Source of the DNA: Burkholderiales bacterium
Lineage (GTDB): Bacteria; Pseudomonadota; Gammaproteobacteria; Burkholderiales; SG8-39
Assembly: GCA_025458245.1 (NCBI GenBank)
Contig: JALOSW010000035.1
Span: 1-32,158, forward strand
Reading direction: 5' to 3'
Length of the DNA: 32,158 nt
In this document: positions 19,163 to 24,659 of the stretch, one piece after another
How the letters are laid out: every line of letters starts with the position of its first letter
Position numbering within the stretch: the stretch's first letter is position 1
Made by a program: the position numbers and the translations under genes
The notes under the pieces: model-generated
Database searches by the model: none
What the model was told of the DNA's origin: nothing
What the model saw: only the letters and a program-made list of their open reading frames with translations

Positions 19163-19939
19163 TCACACCTCGAAGAAGCCGGTCGCCAGCAGTTCCTCCA
19201 GCAGCGCGTCGTAGTCCTGCGCGCCGCGACTGCCCGGCGCGTAGGCATGCACGTCCTTGCCGTGAAACGGGCTCTCAGCGAGCCCGACCGTCTCGGCGAT
19301 TCGCGTCCGCGCCAGCTCCTCCCCGAAGCGCTCGCGCAGTTGCGCCTCGATGCGATGCGCCATGCCCCGGCGCGAGTCGAAGCGCGTGAGCACGTAACGG
19401 CGTTCGACGCGCCGCTTCAGCACGTGCTCCAGCGCTTTCAGGGTGTTCTCCAGGGCGAGGGCGCCGCGCACCGCGAGAAAATCCGCGGAGATCGGCACGA
19501 GCACGCGGTCCGCTGCGAAGATGCCCGATAGCGAGAGCACGCCGAGCATCGGGCAGCAGTCGATGAACGCAGGGCGCGACGCATCGTCCTGTCCGGCGTC
19601 GAGCCCCTCCTTCAGCCGGTACAGGATCCGCGGCCCCTTCCCGAACAGCGAATCGACCTTCATGAGCTCGGCGTGGCCGGGAACCACCTCGCCCCGCCCG
19701 CCGCCCGCCAGCGCGACACGCCGGGAGAGCTCGCGGAGCGGCCGACCTTCGTTGTAGAACGCGAACAGACTGTCGGAAGCCGAGTCGATCGAGCCGCACA
19801 GGATCCCGGTGAGATGCGCCTGCGAGTCGAGGTCGACGAGCAACGGCGCAAGCCCGCGCGCGGCAAGCGCCGCGGCGAGATTGAGCGCGGTGGTGGTCTT
19901 CCCCACCCCGCCCTTCTGGTTGAACACCGCGAGCCGCAT
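19163..19939 (-). CDS. ParA/MinD-family ATPase
   Basis: A 258-aa ATPase with the deviant Walker A motif NQKGGVGKTTTALNLAAAL (Lys9 and Lys14) and the ParA switch VDLDSQAHLTGIL. Further family segments are FIDCCPMLGVLSLSGIFAAD and VLVPISADFLAVRGALALEN. Such ATPases position chromosomes, plasmids or protein machines on the nucleoid or membrane. No ParB, MinC/E or parS-like array is present in the window, so its cargo is unknown. ATG 19939 has GAGGGA about 3 nt upstream. It is divergent from argD across a 240-nt spacer that holds the argD leader. Confidence 0.88.
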   Translation of the reverse strand: MRLAVFNQKGGVGKTTTALNLAAALAARGLAPLLVDLDSQAHLTGILCGSIDSASDSLFAFYNEGRPLRELSRRVALAGGGRGEVVPGHAELMKVDSLFGKGPRILYRLKEGLDAGQDDASRPAFIDCCPMLGVLSLSGIFAADRVLVPISADFLAVRGALALENTLKALEHVLKRRVERRYVLTRFDSRRGMAHRIEAQLRERFGEELARTRIAETVGLAESPFHGKDVHAYAPGSRGAQDYDALLEELLATGFFEV

Positions 19940-20060
19940 CGTCCCTCGTGCGCATTCGGCCGTCTGGCGGGGTCCGCGCCAGCACGATCGTCGTCTCGGG
20001 CAACGAGCCCGGTGCGGCAACCCCGGATTCGCCCCGCAAGCGAGTCGGCCGCCGACGGCT

Positions 20061-20071
20061 TATGTTATGAT
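20061..20071 (+). promoter_or_regulatory. Possible -10 region of argD
   Basis: Two overlapping -10-like hexamers, TATGTT (20061-20066) and TATGAT (20066-20071). No -35 with proper spacing is visible. A start near 20078 would put the following hairpin about 22 nt into the transcript. Confidence 0.3.
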
Positions 20072-20183
20072 CTTTCGACGTTTTCCCATAGGCGCGGCGA
20101 CGGCGGCTTCGAGCCGCCGTTTGGTTTTTTCGGCCCCCCCGGCGCCGCCACCGGGCGCCGCTTTCGGACTGCGAGGGCCATGA
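20067..20183 (+). CDS. Putative 38-aa argD leader peptide
   Basis: An ATG at 20067 opens MIFRRFPIGAATAASSRRLV and ends in a TGA that overlaps the argD ATG (ATGA). Arg pairs occur at positions 4-5 and 17-18, the second pair inside the terminator stem. There is no ribosome site, and the ATG overlaps the -10-like sequence, so translation is doubtful unless transcription starts further upstream. Confidence 0.25.
   Translation: MIFRRFPIGAATAASSRRLVFSAPPAPPPGAAFGLRGP
20100..20130 (+). terminator. Intrinsic terminator in the argD leader (candidate attenuator)
   Basis: ACGGCGGCT (20100-20108) pairs perfectly with AGCCGCCGT (20112-20120) around TCG and is followed by TTGGTTTTTT. It lies 50 nt upstream of argD. 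The neighbouring upstream gene (parA-like) is divergent, so no plus-strand gene exists for this terminator to end. A second hairpin, CGGCGCC (20140-20146) with GGCGCCG (20154-20160), sits just before the argD ribosome site. The GCCGCC at 20144-20149 could also pair with the 5' arm GGCGGC, giving a possible alternative fold. Confidence 0.6.
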
Positions 20184-21364
20184 GCTCGCATCTCATGAAC
20201 ACCTACAACCGGCTCCCCGTCGCATTCGACCGTGGCGAGGGCGTCTGGCTCTGGGACACCGCCGGCAAGAAGTATCTCGACGCGCTCGCCGGCATCGCGG
20301 TTTCCGGCCTCGGCCACGCGCACCCGAAGCTCGTGCGCGCGATCGCAGACCAGGCCGCGAAAGTCATCCACACCTCGAACATCTACGAGGTGCCCAATCA
20401 GTCCGCGCTCGCCGACCGTCTCGCGGCGCTCTCCGGCATGGACGAGTCGTTCTTTTGCAGCTCCGGCGCCGAGGCGAACGAGGCGGCGATCAAGCTCGCG
20501 CGGCTCTACGGCCACCACAACGGCATCCAGAGCGCGAGCATCGTCGTCATGGAGCATGCGTGGCACGGACGCACGCTCGCGACGCTCTCGGCCACCGGCA
20601 ACCGCAAGGCGCAGGCCGGCTTCGAGCCGCTGGTGCCCGGCTTCGTGCGTGTGCCGTACAACGACGCCGCAGCGGTCAGGCAGGCGGGCGACGTGAACCG
20701 GAACATCGTCGCCGTCCTCGTCGAGGTCCTGCAGGGCGAAGGCGGCATTCACGTGGCAGACCCGGACTACGTGCGCTTCCTGCGGCGCCTCTGCGACGAG
20801 AAGGGCTGGCTGCTGATGATCGACGAAGTCCAGTCGGGCATCGGCCGGACCGGTAAGTGGTTCGCGTTCCAGCACGCCGGGATTCTCCCGGACGTCATCA
20901 CTCTCGCGAAGGGACTCGGCTCGGGCGTGCCGGTGGGCGCCTGCGTCGCGGCGGGCCGCGCGAAGGGCGTCTTCAAGCCCGGCAACCATGGATCGACGTT
21001 CGGCGGCGGTCCGCTCGCTTGCGCCGCGGGCCTCGCGACGCTCGCGGCCATGGAGAGCGAGGGACTCCTCGACAACGCCGAACGCATGGGCGAGCTGATC
21101 CGCAGCGGATTCCGCGAGGCGCTCGCCGGCGTGGGCGGTGTCGTCGAAGTGCGCGGGATGGGTCTCATGATCGGCATCGAGCTCGATCGCCCGTGCGGCG
21201 ACCTCGTAAGGCAGGCGCTCGACGCGGGACTGCTCATCAACGTCACCGCCGAGCGCGTCATCCGGCTGCTCCCGCCGCTCGTGATTCGCGAGAGCGAGGC
21301 GCGCGAGCTGGTCGCGCGGCTCGCCCCGCTCGTGCGCGCCTTCCTCGCCAAGCCCGCGGCCTGA
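20180..21364 (+). CDS. argD: Acetylornithine aminotransferase
   Basis: A 394-aa class III PLP aminotransferase of arginine biosynthesis (N-acetylglutamate semialdehyde to N-acetylornithine). Motifs are YLDALAGIAVSGLGHAHPK, FFCSSGAEANEAAIKLAR, HAWHGRTLATLSATGN, MIDEVQSGIGRTGK, and the PLP lysine Lys244 in TLAKGLGSGVPVGA. Length is normal. ATG 20180 follows GCGAGGGCC; an internal ATG at 20195 is possible. It leads the operon argD-argF-tctC-argG and has an attenuator-like leader. A broader aminotransferase (for example succinyldiaminopimelate) activity is known in the family and cannot be excluded. Confidence 0.93.
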   Translation: MSSHLMNTYNRLPVAFDRGEGVWLWDTAGKKYLDALAGIAVSGLGHAHPKLVRAIADQAAKVIHTSNIYEVPNQSALADRLAALSGMDESFFCSSGAEANEAAIKLARLYGHHNGIQSASIVVMEHAWHGRTLATLSATGNRKAQAGFEPLVPGFVRVPYNDAAAVRQAGDVNRNIVAVLVEVLQGEGGIHVADPDYVRFLRRLCDEKGWLLMIDEVQSGIGRTGKWFAFQHAGILPDVITLAKGLGSGVPVGACVAAGRAKGVFKPGNHGSTFGGGPLACAAGLATLAAMESEGLLDNAERMGELIRSGFREALAGVGGVVEVRGMGLMIGIELDRPCGDLVRQALDAGLLINVTAERVIRLLPPLVIRESEARELVARLAPLVRAFLAKPAA

Positions 21365-21380: not shown

Positions 21381-22307
21381 ATGACCGCACCGCGGCATTT
21401 CCTGCAGCTTTCCGACTTCTCGCGCGACGAGCTGGAGCACCTTTTCGCGCGCACGCGCTGGATCAAGAGCGAGTTCAAGAGCTATCGTCGCTACTGGCCG
21501 CTCGTCGATCGCACGCTCGCGATGATTTTCGAGAAGCAGTCGACGCGCACGCGCCTTTCGTTCGAGGCCGGCATGCACCAGCTCGGCGGCGCGGCGATCT
21601 ACCTCAACACCAAGGACACGCAGCTCGGTCGCGGCGAGCCGGTCGAAGACGCCGCGCAGGTGATCTCGCGCATGGTCGACATCGTGATGATCCGCACCTA
21701 CGAGCAGTCGATCGTGGAGCGTTTCGCCGCGCATTCGCGCGTGCCGGTGATCAACGGGCTCACCAACGAATACCATCCCTGCCAGATCCTCGCCGACATC
21801 TTCACGTTCGCCGAGCAGCGCGGCTCGCTCCGCGGCAAGACGGTGGCGTGGATCGGCGACGCGAACAACGTGTTCAACACCTGGCTGCAGGCGGCGCCGC
21901 TCTTCGACTTCAAGCTGAACGTCTCCTCGCCCGACGGCTACGCGGTCGATGCGGCGCGCATCGCGGCGGTCGGCCGAAACCACGTCGAGACGTTCGCCGA
22001 CCCGATGGACGCGGCACGCGGCGCGGCTCTCGTGACCACCGACGTCTGGACCAGCATGGGGTTCGAGTCCGAAGGCGACGCGCGCAAGCGGGCGTTCGAG
22101 GATTGGCAGGTCGACGGCGAAATGATGCGCGCGGCGAGCGCCGATGCACTCTTCATGCACTGCCTGCCCGCGCACCGCGGCGAAGAGGTCACTGCCGAGG
22201 TGATCGACGGCCCGCAGAGCGTCGTCTGGGACGAGGCCGAGAACCGGCTTCACACCCAGAAAGCGCTGATGGAGTTCCTCGTTCTCGGCCGCATCGAGAC
22301 GCAGTGA
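21381..22307 (+). CDS. argF: Ornithine carbamoyltransferase
   Basis: A 308-aa transcarbamylase making citrulline from ornithine and carbamoyl phosphate in the cytosol. The carbamoyl-phosphate loop STRTR is at 54-58, HPCQILAD follows in the middle, and HCLPAHRGEE begins at His260, with the ornithine-binding Cys261. Length fits OTC. It starts 16 nt after argD, so the two are co-transcribed. Confidence 0.96.
   Translation: MTAPRHFLQLSDFSRDELEHLFARTRWIKSEFKSYRRYWPLVDRTLAMIFEKQSTRTRLSFEAGMHQLGGAAIYLNTKDTQLGRGEPVEDAAQVISRMVDIVMIRTYEQSIVERFAAHSRVPVINGLTNEYHPCQILADIFTFAEQRGSLRGKTVAWIGDANNVFNTWLQAAPLFDFKLNVSSPDGYAVDAARIAAVGRNHVETFADPMDAARGAALVTTDVWTSMGFESEGDARKRAFEDWQVDGEMMRAASADALFMHCLPAHRGEEVTAEVIDGPQSVVWDEAENRLHTQKALMEFLVLGRIETQ

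Positions 22308-23408: not shown

Positions 23409-24659
<1,251 letters not shown>

Follow-up and report, generated by a model that had tools for sequence, protein, structure and literature searches.

A hairpin with the make-up of an intrinsic terminator was found in the 5' leader of argD, the acetylornithine transaminase gene, in many betaproteobacterial genomes. We consider it reasonably probable that this element is a promoter-proximal terminator or attenuator which is conserved over much of the order (Betaproteobacteria) and which works without a recognisable sensor. An apparent stop signal between the promoter and argD in so many betaproteobacteria implies that part of argD transcription probably ends early. 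The window, i.e. the whole stretch of DNA analysed, comprised 32,158 nucleotides from a Burkholderiales bacterium (GCA_025458245.1, contig JALOSW010000035.1).

In the window, a gap of 16 bases separated argD from argF, and the two genes are probably co-transcribed (Table 1). A gene encoding a TctC-type solute receptor (PF03401, 22322-23326, plus strand) split the arg cluster between argF and argG, and a gene for an Orn/Lys/Arg decarboxylase-type protein (PF01276, 16929-18821, plus strand) was located close to the arginine genes. The left neighbour of the spacer upstream of argD was indeed transcribed away from it, as a preliminary description of this DNA had stated, and the stem with T-rich tail placed there by the same description was present as GACGGCGGCT-TCG-AGCCGCCGTT, with nine Watson-Crick pairs plus one G-U pair and the tail TGGTTTTTTC directly after it. 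This is what the sequence criteria of an intrinsic terminator describe, a G+C-rich hairpin with a T-rich tract following at once. A scan of positions 19500 to 20800 returned three terminator-like sites, compared to 0.5 +/- 0.6 in shuffled sequences, and the hairpin before argD had the longest stem among them. Folding of the whole argD leader in the window barely surpassed that of shuffled sequences (z = -1.3; 20 of 200 shuffles were equally good). An Rfam search of the window gave no match at gathering score; under relaxed settings there were two matches in the window stretch and four in eight loci (three miRNA families, one sRNA), all below gathering score and judged to be due to chance.

Table 1. 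Genes and sequence elements around the argD leader in the window.
Feature	Position	Strand	Basis or remark
ParA-type ATPase gene, divergent from argD	19163..19939	-	PF13614
Extended -10 element TGTTATGAT	20063..20071	+	candidate, by-eye sequence reading
Terminator hairpin	20099..20121	+	core CGGCGG (20101-20106) pairs with CCGCCG (20114-20119)
T-rich tail TTTGGTTTTTTC	20120..20131	+	sequence reading and scan
Second hairpin near ribosome site	20140..20160	+	folds; sequence not conserved
argD, acetylornithine transaminase	20180..21364	+	TIGR00707 above cut-off
argF, ornithine carbamoyltransferase	21381..22307	+	TIGR00658 above cut-off
argG	23409-24659		downstream of argF

For a discovery set we collected 133 argD upstream regions, 30 and 23 of them from genomes of relatives and 80 from further records whose titles name mostly Betaproteobacteria or MAGs of these (genera among these records were Rhodocyclus, Thauera, Azonexus, Dechloromonas, Gallionella, Methylotenera and Ferrovum). 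Removal of duplicates (L031, L032, L033, L110), of loci without upstream DNA (L017, L107) and of one with identical upstream DNA (L024) left 126 loci, and four distant matches of about 40% identity (L149-L152) were kept outside all counts. Two of the records, MAGs titled Klebsiella pneumoniae and Lysobacter (L033, L096), encoded ArgD close to the betaproteobacterial query, and their titles are probably wrong. A terminator-like hairpin lay at most 300 nt upstream of the argD start codon in 112 of the 126 loci. Homologous leaders lacking the stem and T-run, which the preliminary description had named as a finding that would refute its reading, were the minority. The sequence CGGCGG was part of the stem in 98 of the 112 hairpins, and some families retained the hairpin with a different stem sequence. 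Our scan found no hairpin in 14 loci; these included five parA-divergent relatives from the window's own family, one of which (L013, scored as hairpin-less) gave a covariance-model match about 270 nt upstream.

A set of 102 leaders was compared base by base; it consisted of 106 hairpins minus four without a regular core (L005, L034, L089, L092), with one hairpin placed by hand (L147). The arms CGGCGG and CCGCCG were found in 99 of these leaders, and the remaining three carried compensated pairs. T occupied positions +8 and +9 behind the core stem in all 102. The rule by which hairpins were accepted required four or more T among nine consecutive bases near the stem and thereby did not fix the T positions; a control for tail positions, built on 22 rows of 3' ends from small loci, was of too low quality to be used. 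The T tract was interrupted in many leaders. Bases before the stem were poorly conserved apart from an A at -1 in 68 leaders, and neither the loop nor the 5' segment of the leader was conserved among relatives. Upstream of argD in two loci (L043, L051) a GCCGCCGTT-like 3' arm with T-rich sequence recurred after the terminator stem, giving each 5' arm more than one possible partner.

The same search was applied to held-out genomes. Among 160 genomes drawn from the order, 106 had a closely matching ArgD (E up to 1e-140), 84 of which were new, and upstream DNA was obtained for 80 (G073, G084, G127 and G165 were left out). Hairpin and tail were present in 63 of these 80 loci, and after removal of the overlap with the discovery set (two identical and three similar loci) in 58 of 75 within 300 nt upstream of argD, compared to a mean of 1.9 and a maximum of 5 in shuffled controls. 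Seventeen of the 75 showed no hairpin by our scan. The 58 hairpins spanned 27 of 32 families, and 51 of them ended no more than 63 nt from the start codon; those located farther away may belong to other units. CGGCGG formed part of 38 stems, while 20 stems had other sequences, and the occurrence of other stems in the same position before argD suggests that the terminator, rather than its sequence, is under selection.

Pairing within the stem was assessed in an alignment of 66 of 78 less redundant leaders, 12 being excluded mostly for long loops or close similarity to others. Five of the nine pairs changed on both sides, and 92.4% of the pairing cells were paired compared to 88.7 +/- 0.7 in shuffled alignments, a value reached by none of 500 shuffles. 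Covariation in the core was thin, with four of the nine pairs invariant, a number of pair types that was matched by 44 of 500 shuffles, and a small covariation term of -0.12 kcal/mol. Because related sequences can surpass such shuffles, we take these pairing statistics as support and not as proof. The preliminary description had suggested a test for covariation in both of its hairpins; the terminator stem showed it thinly, in the three compensated leaders and five of nine pairs, and the sequence of the second hairpin was not conserved in near relatives.

A covariance model built from the argD leaders was run over 61 genomes. We inspected 51 matches outside argD, picked from the upper part of the matches listed, and 45 of these followed a co-directional gene at a distance of no more than 200 nt; four others were inside a gene call and two elsewhere, and none was found 5' of a divergently flanked gene. 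One of the 45 (L227) was the argD leader of genome G015 at a contig end, which gives 44 of 50 as the stricter figure. That leader sequence was present on two contigs of the genome near their ends (L015, L227), probably a single place split by the assembly. As the model matched mostly ordinary gene-end terminators, the argD hairpin looks like a true intrinsic terminator that was kept in a leader. A stem of special sequence, suggested by the identical arms in nearly all leaders, was rejected because similar stems occurred at gene ends and argD itself was also preceded by different ones. The control DNA, 400 kb taken from 20 relatives, had terminator-like hairpins in one of 62 divergent 5' regions and two of 62 convergent ends, compared to 104 of the 126 argD loci under the same, stricter stem and tail criteria; the low figure for convergent ends means that the criteria are strict or that such terminators are rare there. 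Gene calls behind the counts for neighbours, control DNA and model matches were made by our own crude ORF heuristics.

The extended -10 element in the window places a putative transcription start near position 20078, and near relatives carried the same sort of element. No sigma-70 promoter with both -35 and -10 hexamers was found in the scanned region of the window, and as no TA occurs between the hairpin and argD there is no -10-like hexamer downstream of the stem. Of the 102 leaders, 20 had an extended -10 element in the 62 nt preceding the stem (mean of shuffled sequences 5.5, maximum 12). The element is thus enriched before the stem, yet by this rule it is absent from most leaders. Any -10 candidate upstream of the stem was found, by a rule of our own, in only 47 of 102 leaders, with a median of 13 nt from the predicted start to the stem, and 19 of 102 had a -10-like hexamer downstream of the stem and ahead of the start codon. 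The core stem ended at most 45 nt from the start codon in 78 of 102 leaders, which leaves scant room for a later promoter. Given the putative promoter in the window, the position of the hairpin and the divergent neighbour would fit the layout of an attenuator.

We consider termination within the argD leader likely. Polymerases starting at the putative argD promoter would reach the terminator within about 30-60 nt, where a fraction would be released with a short RNA and the rest would continue into argD and probably argF. Selection might keep the read-through fraction, either as a fixed throttle or for the action of a trans-acting or general factor. The C-terminal domain of ArgR was detected in none of the 61 genomes of relatives, while the same search was positive in 8 of 14 controls including E. 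coli. According to Leyn et al. (2016, PMC5343134), ArgR shows high conservation across many gammaproteobacterial groups and is absent from the other classes covered by their study. A trans-acting termination or antitermination factor that senses arginine or general amino-acid supply might, in a class that lacks ArgR, control the arginine pathway at this minimal terminator, an idea that we regard as speculative and on the unlikely side. If true, such a factor at the argD terminator would be a hitherto undescribed means of arginine control.

Among the alternatives, the hairpin could be the terminator of the upstream gene, originally rpsT, which was retained as an insulator against read-through. 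The neighbour upstream of argD was a co-directional rpsT in 29 of the 126 loci, a divergent parA in 26, another gene in 70 and a contig end in one, and several of the rpsT loci had a single hairpin between rpsT and argD, as this explanation would predict. The hairpin was, however, retained whether the neighbour was parA, rpsT or another gene, including 21 of the 26 parA-divergent loci, and some rpsT-argD loci had a separate rpsT terminator in addition to the argD hairpin (e.g. L047, L078, L098, L138). Likeness among loci was also lost in the bases before the stem and retained in the stem itself, and we consider an origin as upstream terminator unlikely.

The hairpin might also act as a non-terminating stabiliser of the 5' end of the mRNA or as an aid to translation. 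Such a role would agree with the tail commonly running on into a G-rich stretch, and with a stem that began at the predicted start or no more than 6 nt away from it in 14 of the 47 leaders with a -10 candidate; where the stem starts at this point, early termination is less certain. Against it, the T at +8 and +9 was constant regardless of the distance to the start codon (26 leaders far, 76 near), and stem and tail resembled the terminators behind genes, so that we judge this role to be quite improbable. The putative promoter and the terminator, about 50 nt apart, would further form a complete small transcription unit, from which a short free sRNA acting elsewhere might be released while argD is expressed by read-through. 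With loop and 5' segment lacking conservation and no Rfam family at gathering score, we hold this to be very unlikely.

A terminator kept in the leader remains our preferred reading, and it retains one part of the attenuator or riboregulator layout proposed in the preliminary description, as a conserved leader terminator was found also beside divergent genes; the antiterminator part was not supported. The proposed pairing of GCCGCC (20144-20149) with the 5' arm of the terminator, when forced, lay about 4 kcal/mol above the best fold in energy, and since this partner lies downstream of the T tract the pairing would form too late. We rejected this antiterminator for its downstream position, weaker pairing and lack of conservation, with relatives not clearly above chance: competing partners for the 5' arm were found in 22 of 47 leaders (shuffled mean 17.9, range 10-26). 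The second hairpin does fold as described, but its sequence was not common to six other leaders that were folded, two leaders (L002, L007) formed other hairpins in this region, and it is probably incidental. No conserved sensor or alternative pairing of the riboswitch or antiterminator type was found, with competitors near chance and the segment before the stem unconserved. A DNA operator was set aside as well, because the six-base arms were spaced 5 to 15 nt apart across leaders, a spread more in keeping with an RNA element than with the binding site of a dimer. Classical arginine attenuation by a leader peptide or antiterminator is hardly credible: an open frame (MIFRRF...) runs from 20067 across the argD start, and ATG or GTG lay between predicted start and stem end in 27 of 47 leaders, but the ATG at 20067 falls within the -10 element, an ATG before the stem was lacking in 39 of 47 leaders although ribosome-mediated attenuation would need a translated leader peptide with codons for the end product, the distance from start to stem is short, none of the 47 leaders had an upstream competitor for the 3' arm (shuffled mean 1.0), and this frame, not general among leaders, was rejected as a leader peptide.

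The intrinsic (Rho-independent) terminators that these genomes have at their gene ends are similar in stem composition, spacing and T-rich tail; they end genes, whereas the argD hairpin precedes its gene and lies inside the leader. In leader-peptide attenuators of the trp type a terminator is located ahead of a biosynthetic operon. A terminator-like hairpin likewise precedes argD, but unlike in these attenuators neither a conserved leader peptide nor an alternative fold was found in the argD leaders. Among the open-access literature searched we found no earlier report of an argD leader terminator. A related description is the catalogue of premature 5' terminators by Naville and Gautheret (2010, PMC2965389), the main text of which does not mention argD or arginine. 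The carA motif of betaproteobacteria, described mostly from Polynucleobacter (PMC8632094), resembles the argD leader in being an RNA structure ahead of an arginine/pyrimidine gene and in occurring in the same class; it belongs to a gene other than argD and is described as an extended imperfect hairpin. A terminator in the argD leader across most of the families examined offers a concrete and cheap starting point for work on the control of arginine synthesis in betaproteobacteria. Next to these systems, argD would exemplify a leader terminator that was retained without a recognisable sensor.
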